63,128 bases of DNA, taken from a virus. A program made the translations under genes and the position numbers. The DNA is taken from the IMG/VR virus record IMGVR_UViG_3300037346_000608, positions 1 through 63,128 of that record. The stretch is one strand, 5' to 3'. This document shows, piece after piece, positions 13,802-50,797 of this stretch; position 1 is the stretch's first letter; each line of letters starts with the position of its first letter. The notes below the pieces were generated by a model. That model saw only the letters and a list, made by a program, of their open reading frames with translations. It was not told the DNA's origin and did no database searches.

Positions 13802-13863
13802 GCTTTTTATTTTTATATGTTATTTTTCACAAAGGTATTTGTCTACCAAATCAATTTTGCTTA

Positions 13864-17161: not shown

Positions 17162-17193
17162 TTTTATTTTTATATGTAAAAAGTTATAAAAGT

Positions 17194-42720: not shown

Positions 42721-43599
42721 TTATATATCAGAGAAAATAGCATTAGTGATCCAATCATGTAATGGATCATCGTGTGTAGGAATATCGCCACCTTTAACAA
42801 TCGCAGATTCAATGTGCTTAATACAACCTAAAGGATTACCATCAGGATCAATAATAAACTCTCTCATGTCTGGAAAACTCATTGATTCAAATGGATTATT
42901 AAGCATATCTTTAATTAAGCCAAAGTGTCTTTCATAAATATGAAGAGAATGAATAATATGAGTGTATGTACCCATTTCTAATTCAGGATAATACTTTCTT
43001 AAATGTTGGTACATCTGTTCTTGTAATAAACAAAAGAATGCAACATCAGTTGGTGTGCCAAGAATAAGATCATTTGATCTCATATCAATAGTAAAGTTTA
43101 ACCTATTATCACGAATTTGAAAAACACCAGTTAATGTACATACAAAATCTTTGTTATCAGTCCATTGATGTGAAGGTTTATTAAAATGCAAAATTGCTTG
43201 GCGACTATCTTTATCATGAATAAGAGAGTTTAATGCCCATTGGTATTGGTTCCAACCGTGATCATTTTTTTCAGTAAAGATAAGATTACCATAAGCAGAG
43301 TTTACAGTCCCATCACCATTATCAATATGTTCCCAGAATTTTGCAAAAGGAGCAATAAATTCAATATCATTTCTACCAGTAAAGTACCAAACTAATTCAG
43401 CACCAATATACTTGAATTGACTGCTTCTTCTCTTATTTTCATATAGAGAAAAACGCGGATCTTCGATAACAAGAGCAGCATTGGTAACCTCTTTAATTTT
43501 CATACCTCTTGGTGAAGTAATATATTCTGGGTTATTAAATACATCAGTAAGTGCAGTTTGATATACATCTGCAAAAGTTTCTCCTTTATAAGTTCTCAT
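42721..43599 (-). CDS. thymidylate synthase family, likely dCMP hydroxymethylase, 292 aa
   Basis: Core motifs are GAELVWYFTGRNDIEFI, DSRQAILHFN, DFVCTLTGVFQI with the catalytic Cys154, MRSNDLILGTPTDVAFF and HIIHSLHIYERH. The residue that is Asn177 in E. coli thymidylate synthase and reads dUMP is Asp185 here (GTPTD), as in dCMP hydroxymethylases. I therefore favour synthesis of 5-hydroxymethyl-dCMP. It lies beside two kinases able to handle dNMPs. Confidence 0.8.
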   Translation of the reverse strand: MRTYKGETFADVYQTALTDVFNNPEYITSPRGMKIKEVTNAALVIEDPRFSLYENKRRSSQFKYIGAELVWYFTGRNDIEFIAPFAKFWEHIDNGDGTVNSAYGNLIFTEKNDHGWNQYQWALNSLIHDKDSRQAILHFNKPSHQWTDNKDFVCTLTGVFQIRDNRLNFTIDMRSNDLILGTPTDVAFFCLLQEQMYQHLRKYYPELEMGTYTHIIHSLHIYERHFGLIKDMLNNPFESMSFPDMREFIIDPDGNPLGCIKHIESAIVKGGDIPTHDDPLHDWITNAIFSDI

Positions 43600-44367: not shown

Positions 44368-44381
44368 TTTATTTTTATATG

Positions 44382-45736: not shown

Positions 45737-45780
45737 ACTAATAATTTATTTTTATATTGAAAAACATAGTAAGGTTTCAT

Positions 45781-47013
45781 TTAGTTTAATGATTTTTTAA
45801 GTTTTTCTAAATCTTTTATATACATATCTTTAGAATCAGTTTTCTTAATGACTTCAACCTCAACTTCCTTATCGCCTTTCTGTTTTAAAAGTTCTTCAAA
45901 CTTCTCTTTTGTTAATGTATATATGGGCATGCCTAAAAGATAATTAAAACTTCTATCAACCTGATTATATTTGTTTTTGGTTAAATAATCAATAATAGTT
46001 TCTCTAGGTACATTGTTTACTTTAAGCTTTCCTTGAATAATGTCTTTAATAAATCTTGCACGATTTGAAATTACTAAAAGTTCCCTTTCCAATTTAGATA
46101 AGAGATAAACTTTTCTTTTATCATAATAACCTAATCGTATACCTACAAAATGAGTAACAATATCTTCTGCTTTAGTAAAAATCTTAAGCTTACCATTTTC
46201 ATCAATAGTGGTTAAGTTTTCAGTTTCCTGTGAATGTATTTTCAGTAGTGCATCAAGTTTAGATTTTGAAATATAATCCTTAAGAATAGATCTTTGGAAT
46301 TTCAAAATATATTCAATCTTATCTGATGAATTATCTTCGTAATCAACAATAATTCTTTTTTCAACTAATGAATTCAACCACTCTTCATATCTTTCATAAG
46401 TAAACGAAGGAGGAATTTCTGTTACTTTAACTGTTGTGCTATTTACAACCTCGTATGAACCACTAATTTTCCATGTATTAGGATTTTGTGAATCTCTTGT
46501 AAAAGTACCAGTAAATTCACTTAACCAAGGAGAAAGTGTTTTCATCTTCTTATTATCAAGAACAGCTAGGCATGCATCAACTACATCTTTAGGATTTCTA
46601 TTAAGAATGTTTGTTGCAAAACCAACCGCAATCCCAGATGAACCATTTAAAATTACAGTAGGCACAATAGGTAAAAAGAATTCAGGTTCAATTTCTTCGC
46701 CTTCCTCAATTTTATTTGATAGTAATTCAAAATCTTGATAAATTAATCTAAAATTAGAATGCAATTTACCACTAATATAACGTGGTGCACCAGCAGACGG
46801 TGAACGTAATGATCCAAATTGTCCAATACCATCAAGGAGAGGTAATGAATTTTTAAATTTTTGTGCCATCCCAACCATCGCGCTCTCTAAACTTGAATTA
46901 TGAACGATTGATTTTGAATCAAACACTGCAAAATTATGAGTGTTATCAACTTCAATGTCCCAGAATTGTTTTGGGGTGGTTAAAATTACCCTATTTACTT
47001 TCTTTATTTTCAT
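45781..47013 (-). CDS. 52: split intein C-part fused to topoisomerase II medium subunit C-part, 410 aa
   Basis: Residues 1-39 look like an intein C-terminal part: NRVILTTPKQFWDIEVDNTH, then NFAVF and the terminal IVHN; Ser40 would be the +1 residue. From residue 40 the sequence is the type IIA topoisomerase A subunit: SSLESAMVGMAQKFKNSLPL, DGIGQFGSLRSPSAGAPRYI with the catalytic tyrosine, then GSSGIAVGFATNI. The missing N-terminal part is the 47266-47805 gene. The two proteins would be joined by trans-splicing to give a T4 gp52-like subunit. Confidence 0.9.
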   Translation of the reverse strand: MKIKKVNRVILTTPKQFWDIEVDNTHNFAVFDSKSIVHNSSLESAMVGMAQKFKNSLPLLDGIGQFGSLRSPSAGAPRYISGKLHSNFRLIYQDFELLSNKIEEGEEIEPEFFLPIVPTVILNGSSGIAVGFATNILNRNPKDVVDACLAVLDNKKMKTLSPWLSEFTGTFTRDSQNPNTWKISGSYEVVNSTTVKVTEIPPSFTYERYEEWLNSLVEKRIIVDYEDNSSDKIEYILKFQRSILKDYISKSKLDALLKIHSQETENLTTIDENGKLKIFTKAEDIVTHFVGIRLGYYDKRKVYLLSKLERELLVISNRARFIKDIIQGKLKVNNVPRETIIDYLTKNKYNQVDRSFNYLLGMPIYTLTKEKFEELLKQKGDKEVEVEVIKKTDSKDMYIKDLEKLKKSLN

Positions 47014-47104
47014 TTAGCCAGTTTTTAATGTGAATTGGTGTTGTGGTTATTTTTGTCCCTTTGCTTAAATTTTCAGAATAAAATATAAGTTCTAAATTTT
47101 GCAT
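46991..47104 (-). CDS. small ORF in the split-intein gap, 37 aa
   Basis: MQNLELIFYSENLSKGTKIT to IKNWLNENKESK overlaps the start of the C-part gene by 23 bases in another frame. It may be the leftover end of a homing endonuclease or of the intein's middle region. Weak support. Confidence 0.35.
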   Translation of the reverse strand: MQNLELIFYSENLSKGTKITTTPIHIKNWLNENKESK

Positions 47105-47226
47105 TCTTTACATGATGTTGTATGTAATTGTAGATTTTTATTAAAATTAATATTACTCATTAGTTTATTATCAAAGATCACGTTACATTTAGTACATACA
47201 TAGTTATTAAGCCTAGCTCTGTTCAT
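47092..47226 (-). CDS. small zinc-ribbon ORF in the split-intein gap, 44 aa
   Basis: MNRARLNNYVCTKCNVIFDN to SCKECKI contains two C-x-x-C pairs, as in zinc ribbons of homing endonucleases. It is preceded by TATATAAAAATAAAG, the shared start-site motif, so it may be expressed. It lies between the two intein halves, where a homing endonuclease would sit in an unsplit intein. Confidence 0.5.
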   Translation of the reverse strand: MNRARLNNYVCTKCNVIFDNKLMSNINFNKNLQLHTTSCKECKI

Positions 47227-47265
47227 GCTTTATTTTTATATACACGAGAGATGAGCTATATGTTA

Positions 47266-47805
47266 TCATGGCACCCACAATGATCTAATATTATGTAAAC
47301 TGGTTAAATATTGTGCTTCTATCCAATCTCCGCACTCTAGCAAAATCATATGATCTGGTGTGCATTTAATAATATCACCGTTCTCCAGTTCTAACTCAAT
47401 CATTTCGCTAGTCACTGCTCCCTTAAACGGTGGTGAGCTAAGTTCATAAATACCAGAACCTGTATTTTCATTAAACGATAATATCTCCAAGCTTTCTGAT
47501 GGGTATTGTTCATGCCATTCTTTAAATGAAATTTTACCATATTTCTTGGAGTGGACAATTGTATTTTCGTCAAGACAGTTCCCGTGATGATAATATGCCT
47601 CAGCAGCAACTCTACCTGCTAATTGAAATAGTTTCATTGGTTTTTCATTTCCACTTTTCCAGATTTTATTGGCCACATGTACTACCTTTCTCTGTGTAGG
47701 TTTTAAACCGTCAATACAACTAGGTATAGCACGGTTTTCCACAACATATTTGGCATACTCTAAGTATTCTTTATCAAAGAATGATGTTACGGTTCTTTTA
47801 TTCAT
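47266..47805 (-). CDS. 52: topoisomerase II medium subunit N-part fused to split intein N-part, 179 aa
   Basis: Residues 1-76 are the start of a gp52/GyrA-like subunit (RAIPSCIDGLKPTQRKVVHV, VAAEAYYHHGN). Cys77 begins an intein N-part: CLDENTIVHSKKYGKISFKE, then ELENGDIIKCTPDHMILLEC with the conserved TxxH. About 103 residues is the usual size of a split-intein N half. The host-protein joint is YHHGN|C in one half and HN|SS in the other, a conserved site just before the catalytic domain. Confidence 0.9.
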   Translation of the reverse strand: MNKRTVTSFFDKEYLEYAKYVVENRAIPSCIDGLKPTQRKVVHVANKIWKSGNEKPMKLFQLAGRVAAEAYYHHGNCLDENTIVHSKKYGKISFKEWHEQYPSESLEILSFNENTGSGIYELSSPPFKGAVTSEMIELELENGDIIKCTPDHMILLECGDWIEAQYLTSLHNIRSLWVP

Positions 47806-49679
47806 TAAAATAAAGATTTTTTGTTATTATTTACTTCTACAGATTCACCTAATATCTTTCTTTTACGAGGTGTAGAGTCACCAGAAAACCATATTTCTAA
47901 TGTACTATTAAATCCATTATCCTTAGTAAGAATATATGATCGTGGGCTTCTAATGATCTCTTTATACTCATCGTCTTCCAATGCAGCTAATCCTTTCTTA
48001 TATTCAATATTCCATGAAGATAATGATTTTTGTTTACTCTCCCATACTTTATAGTCTTCATCAGAATAAAAACTTAAGGTTTCCTTTCCTTTTTTCGCAA
48101 CCATTAAAGGTGTTTCAATTTTTAGCATCTTACCATCTTCAAATAGTTCTGGCCAATATTTACCAAAGAAATTAATTAGAAGTGCAGATATTGAATTACC
48201 ATCGACATCGGCATCAGTATAAAATAGGATCTTACCATATCTTATGTCCTTTGGTTCATGACCAATCTTAAGACCGATTGCAGCCATCAGAGACTGTACT
48301 TCTTTGTTTTGTACAACCTTTGAATCAGGTATTTCTCTTACATTAATAAATTTACCACGAAGTGGGAATGCACCTTGTGTTTGCGGTTCACGATAACGTC
48401 TAAATGCAGAAGAGGCTGAATCACCTTCAAATATAGCAAGAGTACAGTTTTTCCTATCACCGCTTTTCTTTGCATCGATAAGTTTAAGAACTTTAGATTT
48501 ATCAAGATTATTATTAAGCTTTCTAAGCTTTGCTCTTTCGTCTGCTGCATTTTTTCTCTCTATCCAATCTAAAACAGATTGTATAATTTCTGATGTAAAT
48601 ATTTGTTTTAGTATCTTATCTGATAATTCATGTATACTACCATAATCTTTAGGCTCAGTAATAAGTTTTTCTTTAGTTTGTGATGAGAATGCTGGATTAA
48701 TTACCGTACAATCAATAAACAGAAAAATATGTTGTTTGAGTTCTGCAGGTTTTACATCAACTCTATATTTCTTTTTAATCTTTTCACGAAGATCTTGGAT
48801 GATTTGATGTGTTATATTATTAACATGAGTACCGCCATCTTTTGTCTCAACAGAATTAACAAACGAAATTGCTTTAAATCCTACAGTAGAGTGACCTATA
48901 CCAATTTTCCAATTTGGGGATTGTTCGTAAAATACATAATCGGTATATAGTTCTGCGTATTCTTTAAATGAACCAAATGATATTTGGGTTTCATTAAAAA
49001 AGATCTTAAGTGAATGATTACATGCAGCTATATCGTATAGTCTTTTCTGTATCATCCTAATTGATGCATCATCAATTCCTGTCATACCAAATCTTTGATA
49101 ATCAGGAATATATGATATTTCAGTAAAGCCTTTCTTTATAGGTTTAATAATAGGATCGGTACGCTTTGACATATTATCAGTAAATACTTGTGTAAAGTGT
49201 TTTTTACCATCACAAGTTTCAATCCTAAACTCTTTACTAAATATATTGGTAAGTGTACTACCAACACCATTGGTACCTACTACGACGCGATCCTCAGTAT
49301 CATCAAAATTACTTCCAGTTTTTAAATTACTAAAGATCATCTCTGGAACCCATTCATTGTAATCTTTATGAATTTCTACTGGAATTCCACCATTATCCCA
49401 AATTGATATTCTACCAGAAGGTTTATCGATTGTTATTTTAATATGGTTAAGCTTAGTATTTCTTTTATGTTCATCTACTGAGTTTGAAACAATCTCATCA
49501 AACATTTTTATTAGTCCAGGATTATAAGTAATCTCGGTTGGTTCAAATTTTTTGTTATCATTAAGTAAATAAACTGACTCTGTGTGAGGTTTAATAGAAC
49601 CAATATACATACCAGGTCTTAAAAGAACATGCTCGGTGTCGGTGAGCCTTTGATATCTTTTCTCTATACTTACTGCCAT
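47805..49679 (-). CDS. 39: type II DNA topoisomerase large subunit (gp39/GyrB-like), 624 aa
   Basis: GHKL ATPase motifs are VLLRPGMYIGS, IVSNSVDEHKRN, ISIWDNGGIPVE and VVVGTNGVGSTLTNIFS. The TOPRIM domain has CTLAIFEGDSASSAFRRYRE, QGAFPLRGKFINV and ILFYTDADVDGNSISALLIN. It binds and hydrolyses ATP and, with the gp52-like subunit, relaxes or untangles ph age DNA during replication. Full length for the T4 gp39 plus gp60 arrangement in one polypeptide. Confidence 0.95.
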   Translation of the reverse strand: MAVSIEKRYQRLTDTEHVLLRPGMYIGSIKPHTESVYLLNDNKKFEPTEITYNPGLIKMFDEIVSNSVDEHKRNTKLNHIKITIDKPSGRISIWDNGGIPVEIHKDYNEWVPEMIFSNLKTGSNFDDTEDRVVVGTNGVGSTLTNIFSKEFRIETCDGKKHFTQVFTDNMSKRTDPIIKPIKKGFTEISYIPDYQRFGMTGIDDASIRMIQKRLYDIAACNHSLKIFFNETQISFGSFKEYAELYTDYVFYEQSPNWKIGIGHSTVGFKAISFVNSVETKDGGTHVNNITHQIIQDLREKIKKKYRVDVKPAELKQHIFLFIDCTVINPAFSSQTKEKLITEPKDYGSIHELSDKILKQIFTSEIIQSVLDWIERKNAADERAKLRKLNNNLDKSKVLKLIDAKKSGDRKNCTLAIFEGDSASSAFRRYREPQTQGAFPLRGKFINVREIPDSKVVQNKEVQSLMAAIGLKIGHEPKDIRYGKILFYTDADVDGNSISALLINFFGKYWPELFEDGKMLKIETPLMVAKKGKETLSFYSDEDYKVWESKQKSLSSWNIEYKKGLAALEDDEYKEIIRSPRSYILTKDNGFNSTLEIWFSGDSTPRKRKILGESVEVNNNKKSLF

Positions 49680-50094: not shown

Positions 50095-50601
50095 TTAGAA
50101 TAATAAAAATGTTTCCCATTCTTTTGGGATGTATTCAACCTGTCTTAGTAACATTAAATAATGTGGACGTTTTGGTTCTGGTATTTGCTTACCATATTCT
50201 TCTAATGTTAAATCTGCCTTTTCCTGATTGCATCGCCTGCACGCAGTTACTAAATTATCCCAGCTATCCCTACCACCTTTTGATTGTGGAACAACGTGAT
50301 CCAAGGTTAGAGTTCGTTGTTTTGAATCGCCGCAATAAACACATTCAAAATTATCTCTTTTATAAATATTTTCACGAGTTAGAGGTACCTTATGTGTATG
50401 CTGTTTAACATAATTAAATACCCTTATAATAGAAGGTTTGTAAATTTCTAAATTTGGGTTTACTAATCCAAATGTTTCAGGGTGTTCAGCAATTACTTCA
50501 GCATTACCTTTATAAGTAATCACAAAGGCTCTTTCTGCTGAGATAATACTTCTTGCAATAAAGCTTGAATCTATTACTAGTGTCTTTTGATACTTACCCA
50601 T
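50095..50601 (-). CDS. HNH endonuclease-like protein, 168 aa
   Basis: The likely start is MGKYQKTLVIDSSFIARSII; the longer frame upstream overlaps another ORF. The C-terminal HNH domain has FECVYCGDSKQRTLTLDHVV, PQSKGGRDSWDNLVTACRRC and NQEKADLTLEEYG: zinc cysteines and the D-H-V catalytic centre. HNH proteins of this McrA-like type nick or cut DNA. It stands just before the tRNA array, a common place for mobile endonucleases. Confidence 0.85.
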   Translation of the reverse strand: MGKYQKTLVIDSSFIARSIISAERAFVITYKGNAEVIAEHPETFGLVNPNLEIYKPSIIRVFNYVKQHTHKVPLTRENIYKRDNFECVYCGDSKQRTLTLDHVVPQSKGGRDSWDNLVTACRRCNQEKADLTLEEYGKQIPEPKRPHYLMLLRQVEYIPKEWETFLLF

Positions 50602-50797
50602 AATAACTGGTTTTAAATGATTTATACTGTGTTTTTCTGTTGTGCTTCCAAGAACGGTATTGCCTGTATTTAAAAGACCATATACCGGATTTTTTACTCC
50701 AATAGTCTTCAAACCACGCATCCCATTCTGTATACTCTTTTCTCTTTTCTAACTCATACTCTTTATTGGTATAGTTTTTAATTCTCATTTTGCTCAA
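50594..50797 (-). CDS. possible small basic protein, 67 aa
   Basis: Lysine- and tyrosine-rich ORF (MRIKNYTNKEYELEKRKEYT, WDAWFEDYWSKKSGI) overlapping the N-terminal extension of the HNH frame. Only one of the two overlapping frames upstream of 50601 is likely to be real and I cannot decide which. Confidence 0.35.
   Translation of the reverse strand: MSKMRIKNYTNKEYELEKRKEYTEWDAWFEDYWSKKSGIWSFKYRQYRSWKHNRKTQYKSFKTSYYG

Follow-up and report, generated by a model that had tools for sequence, protein, structure and literature searches.

A putative natural split intein in the topoisomerase II medium subunit gene of a phage, with an endonuclease relic between its halves

Introduction

Why should a large phage encode the medium subunit of its topoisomerase II in two neighbouring genes, each bearing, at the end that faces the other, residues that close relatives lack? 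The question is raised by the IMG/VR virus record IMGVR_UViG_3300037346_000608, of which we analysed positions 1 to 63,128 (this whole stretch of 63,128 nucleotides (nt) is called the window here). The T4 gp52-like subunit is represented in the window by two minus-strand open reading frames (ORFs), at 47266-47805 (179 residues) and 45781-47013 (410 residues). We put at roughly 0.9 the probability that a naturally split class-1 intein interrupts this gene at YHHGN|S, that its halves trans-splice, and that its homing endonuclease has lost its core.

Results

Two gp52-like genes carry complementary intein halves

The upstream gene opens with the N-extein (47578..47805, minus strand), the first 76 residues of the subunit, which end in YHHGN, match phrog_551 (E = 7.6e-27) and are 81-90% identical to the uninterrupted gp52 of relatives. 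It continues with the N-terminal intein part (IntN; 47266..47577, minus strand), 103 residues followed by a stop, which matches TIGR01445 (E = 4.5e-8) with 34.0 bits against a cut-off of 24.5. The downstream gene starts with the 39-residue C-terminal intein part (IntC; 46897..47013, minus strand), which scores 19.1 bits with TIGR01443 (cut-off 15.6) and ends in IVHN directly ahead of SSLESAMVGMAQ. The other 371 residues form the C-extein (45781..46896, minus strand; phrog_551, E = 3.6e-112), beginning S(+1)SLESAMVGMAQ, so that the break sits just ahead of a conserved MAQ-containing segment. The original prediction had described Cys77 and an intein N-part of about 103 residues after YHHGN, and a C-part gene opening with about 39 residues that end in IVHN; the ORF coordinates and the two curated models agree with both descriptions.

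The residues that define a class-1 intein are distributed over the two proteins, the invariant C1, T73 and H76 (the last two forming the block-B T-x-x-H) on the first, and the invariant block-F Asp, penultimate His and terminal Asn, followed by Ser+1, on the second. The computed net charge is -10 for IntN and +2 for IntC. The two pieces are adjacent on the same strand with their intein halves facing the gap, an arrangement shared with five other phage loci, L002, L065, L066, L067 and L089. Joining the 76 and 371 extein residues gives a predicted subunit of 447 residues, whose spliced-junction peptide would contain YYHHGNSSLESAMVGMAQK.

Relatives of the window phage have an empty site

Two scans of IMG/VR yielded about 50 related loci with an uninterrupted gp52, at 71-93% identity along almost the entire protein. 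The predicted spliced sequence aligns continuously with these loci, best with L007 (93% over 446 residues; also 93% for the C-extein), and the gap-free joint with intact gp52 that the original prediction had named as a check was found throughout. Because these relatives are uninterrupted at the joint, they represent empty sites. Synteny of the window with L007, the closest relative, extends from the large subunit gene to a 292-residue gene at 42721-43599. The topoisomerase II large subunit gene itself (47805..49679, minus strand; phrog_543, E = 3.4e-189) is intact, lies directly upstream of the N-part and is syntenic in relatives.

Nearly all uninterrupted relatives read YHHGN|TS at the site; the window and L016 have N|SS. 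Ser+1 and the flanking codons therefore probably came in with the element. Set against 32 different uninterrupted coding sequences in 438 intervals of 30 nt, the window gp52 showed its greatest excess divergence in seven intervals that all spanned the joint (starts 213-231, reaching to about 260), and several serine codons near it differ as AGY versus TCN, which requires more than one substitution. Such a footprint would be expected if the DNA around the insertion had been co-converted when the element homed in from a diverged donor, although recoding of the target might leave a similar pattern.

Related inteins occupy the same site in other phages

The site, in the form YHHG[DN]|S, holds a related split intein in each of the five phages with the shared arrangement. 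L002 is the 462-kb huge-phage genome LR756500.1, where the gene is split in the same way at this site, around a 300-residue ORF; L065, L066, L067 and L089 were retrieved by searches with IntN alignments, as was a further locus, L088, in which an uninterrupted 144-residue mini-intein occupies the same site inside a 589-residue gp52. In L088 (L088:3891-7542) the gp52 gene with this cis mini-intein is adjoined by a 608-residue Vsr-like ORF on the opposite strand. The L088 mini-intein is possibly a cis ancestor of the split forms, or else a re-fused form. All seven inteins, the window's included, keep C1, the block-B Thr and His, the block-F Asp, the final His-Asn and Ser+1.

Identity between the L065 intein and its counterparts in L066, L067 and L089 is 53-58%, against just 25-27% between the corresponding exteins; between L065 and L002, by contrast, the exteins are 60% and the inteins 47% identical. 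Since extein and intein divergence disagree in this way, the comparison suggests that the intein moved between distant gp52 lineages. The seven-intein tree was too short to resolve the order of branching, and a grouping of the window with L002 and L065 was not rejected (approximately unbiased test, p-AU 0.09), so the case for horizontal transfer rests on the contrast in identities and not on the tree.

In a GenBank phage collection of 50,697 records, the sole close match to the window IntN was LR756500.1 (46.5%, E = 4e-22), the other matches listed being distant inteins in other genes. A search of a bacterial genome collection for the intein gave no match, and one of a plasmid collection gave distant matches only. 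Cultured-phage matches to the N-part that ran past residue 84 were judged to be chance extension into extein; in the one such phage checked, Morganella phage vB_Mm5, the gene is annotated as one continuous gene.

Structure searches return inteins

A profile of five IntN sequences matched inteins throughout among its strong PDB hits, led by the NrdJ-1 split intein (4.6e-7), and an IntC profile likewise found inteins. The window IntN on its own also had NrdJ-1 as its best match (4.4e-5), and its structural model resembled most closely the Npu DnaE IntN, with NrdJ-1 among the fold matches. The AlphaFold model of the L088 mini-intein (predicted local distance difference test, pLDDT, 76) matched inteins throughout the PDB (best E = 2e-7, template modelling (TM) score 0.75). 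The split intein named in the original prediction is thus supported by curated intein models, PDB matches, a fold search, kept catalytic residues and empty sites. By the same token, it is barely credible that the additional residues are normal coding sequence peculiar to this lineage, or that an RNA intron gave rise to them: we found nothing in favour of either, intein models and PDB entries match these residues, close relatives lack them altogether, and an Rfam search of the interval returned no group I or II intron.

The gap contains both ends of an endonuclease gene

The original prediction had also noted a 252-base gap with a small CxxC ORF, as if a homing endonuclease had been reduced or lost. 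The 252-bp gap has stops in all three frames, and the ORF (47092..47226, minus strand), of 44 residues, resembles the N-terminus of the endonuclease-like ORFs in L002 (BLASTP E = 7e-7 in a single comparison; shuffle p = 0.0002) and L065 (shuffle p = 0.0006), identifying it as the remnant of an N-terminal zinc ribbon from a free-standing endonuclease. Translation of the remaining sequence uncovered, out of frame, the remains of a C-terminal endonuclease tail of HNH type (NLELIFYSENLSKGTK..NENKESK; 46991..47104, minus strand), similar to the tails in L089 (shuffle p = 0.0002) and L067 (p = 0.0046). Neither piece had a PHROG or Pfam match at the thresholds of those libraries, so the assignment of head and tail rests on these pairwise shuffles with same-site endonuclease ORFs. 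The core is missing, and head and tail meet in different frames, which is the state expected if an endonuclease gene lost its centre by deletion.

The other split loci display an endonuclease gene at this position in several conditions, which bears out the idea of a reduced endonuclease. The gene is intact in L002, in L065 (a 319-residue endonuclease-like ORF) and in L067 (a 300-residue HNH-like ORF), and broken into two ORFs in L089; the L066 gap has relics alone and no intact ORF, with L089-like words as judged by eye. The L065 and L002 ORFs match the PHROG homing endonuclease family phrog_3339 and have, again by eye, a Vsr-like (EDxHD) motif; those of L067 and L089, like the window tail, look HNH-type. 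In every one of the intact or broken cases the endonuclease tail overlaps the IntC start (by 4 nt in L002, 17 in L067, 20 in L065 and 29 in L089), and the window tail relic overlaps it by 23 nt. The IntC translation start thus probably lies within the tail DNA, which would be retained for its sake.

Two further endonuclease genes were seen. A free-standing HNH endonuclease gene lies in the window at 50095-50721 (minus strand), two ORFs upstream of the large subunit, and had no match in the compared syntenic stretches of L007 and L011. In Tenacibaculum phage PTm5 an unannotated stretch near baseplate and sheath genes (L106:2501-3007) codes for a protein related to the L065 endonuclease.

The contents of the gap also bear on whether the split is an artefact of assembly or sequencing, namely a frameshift in a continuous cis intein. 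L088 has just such an intein at the same site; a simple frameshift would hardly leave stops in three frames together with the head and tail of an endonuclease, and the five other phages share the split, their IntC start codons occupying the same position. We regard an artefact as extremely improbable.

A predicted hairpin and a promoter-like box precede the relic

A hairpin is predicted ahead of the endonuclease relic (47214..47258, minus strand; -10.9 kcal/mol). Its loop holds the promoter-like TATAAAAATAAA (47229-47240), and the relic ORF starts within its 3' arm. An A/T box and a start codon are placed in this way in L067, L002, L065 and L089 as well. The hairpin z-score is -1.8 in the window, where 9 of 200 shuffles folded equally well, and -7.7, -2.4, -1.7 and -3.7 in these four loci, respectively; the element is absent from L066. 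The box in the L065 loop is TATAAATA, which we take to be the T4 late consensus. There are five exact copies of TATAAAAATAAA in the window, all on the minus strand and 2-10 nt ahead of ORF starts (47229-47240, 45745-45756, 44368-44379, 17163-17174 and 13806-13817), which makes it a candidate for a late promoter or a leader motif in this phage.

In T4 I-TevI and segB and in Aeh1 mobE, such hairpins block translation of early read-through RNA, and a late promoter permits it (PMC2988022). The window has the same layout, but the ORF under control is just a 44-residue relic; by analogy, its hairpin and promoter may still function. Endonuclease leaders in L002 (7174-7240), L067 (6298-6345) and L089 (6298-6360) contain a stretch that resembles the left half-site of the insertion, reminiscent of the operator of I-TevI (several queries were tried; nominal p 0.0005-0.04), which we treat as a lead only. 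The window leader has no such sequence, and none of the leaders checked has joined half-sites.

Discussion

Our analysis suggests the following course of events at this locus. The halves would be translated separately as gp52N-IntN and IntC-gp52C, and the negatively charged IntN would bind IntC and fold with it into one splicing domain. An N-S acyl shift at C1, trans-esterification to Ser+1, Asn cyclisation and an acyl rearrangement would then join the exteins into the full-length subunit and release the intein. The family of elements would home into this site in diverse phages by means of the free-standing endonuclease encoded between the halves. With the endonuclease core deleted, and a zinc-ribbon head, control hairpin and tail remaining, the window element would no longer be able to home unaided; splicing would be maintained because the subunit presumably depends on it.

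Several observations weigh against this account. Among the seven inteins, the window copy has diverged furthest (end branch of 2.2 changes per site, against 0.2-0.95), and the HPFL motif of the other six is replaced in it by TPDHMILL; together these raise the possibility of lowered activity. Its match to Pfam Intein_splicing scores under the gathering cut-off, and the confidence of its IntN model is modest (pLDDT 71, predicted TM score 0.51). As the most diverged copy, it is the one among the seven whose activity is least certain. If the intein were dead or too slow, the gp52 pieces might assemble non-covalently, as do T4 gp39/gp60 and the NrdA of Aeromonas phage Aeh1, whose gene is split by mobE; split phage enzymes that work in this manner are documented (PMC2988022). 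Every catalytic position is kept, however, and both intein frames are open, and without splicing the 103 and 39 extra residues would sit just before the conserved MAQ-containing segment. We therefore consider non-covalent assembly improbable, and the sequences argue strongly for trans-splicing of the window halves.

A broader proposal is considerably more tentative and, on balance, doubtful. This one site may present the full life history of a split intein: empty; with a cis mini-intein and neighbouring endonuclease (L088); split with either of two kinds of endonuclease (L002 and L065 versus L067); with a broken endonuclease (L089); and with a relic (L066 and the window). The relic hairpin and promoter of the window would then have been retained to control IntC-gp52C, so that the fossil of a selfish gene would time topoisomerase assembly.

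With this locus, split inteins gain a further host gene and site, at the start of the DNA-binding helix of an enzyme of DNA replication. As cis, split, endonuclease-bearing and endonuclease-free forms are all available at this single site, comparative and experimental work here could test whether, as has been proposed, split inteins arise through the entry of an endonuclease. The inteins also offer new candidate tools for orthogonal protein ligation.

Among known systems, the closest are the phage 'fractured genes' with split inteins (gp41-1, gp41-8, NrdJ-1 and IMPDH-1) that Dassa et al. in 2009 (cited in PMC7090010) reportedly described in eight enzyme types. These are said to be conserved genes of DNA metabolism, with a free-standing Vsr-like or HNH endonuclease in the gap and control elements ahead of it. 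By every sequence test available, the window element appears to be a natural split intein of this type: it too interrupts a gene of DNA metabolism, its best PDB match is NrdJ-1, and several of its relatives have a free-standing endonuclease in the gap with control elements ahead. It differs in that it sits in the topoisomerase II medium subunit, at YHHG[DN]|S, and in that the window endonuclease is a relic. A literature search, with the Dassa et al. 2009 enzyme types outside the comparison, gave no description of an intein in gp52, and we consider the host gene new, or at least little-noticed, for a split intein. Further fractured genes were seen in passing: in LR756500.1 the large subunit too is intein-split, around a 373-residue endonuclease-like ORF (L002:2947-6625), so that both subunits are fractured, and a helicase-like gene (L092:5500-8433) and a UvsX/RecA-like gene (L104:5347-8265) are intein-split with endonuclease-type ORFs in the gap.

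The gp52 joint is presumably equivalent to Asp82|Ser83 of E. coli GyrA, a quinolone-resistance residue. Mycobacterial GyrA inteins likewise interrupt the homologous cellular subunit, but these are cis inteins and lie elsewhere, since in NF038098 (GyrA_w_intein) the extein continues across the window joint (76-125) and the intein occupies about 125-560. In the T4 topoisomerase genes gp39/gp60 with mobA and in the Aeh1 ribonucleotide reductase gene nrdA with mobE, a phage gene has been broken by a homing endonuclease, as in the family described here; unlike the gp52 elements, however, these genes have no intein, and their pieces assemble without splicing (PMC2988022).
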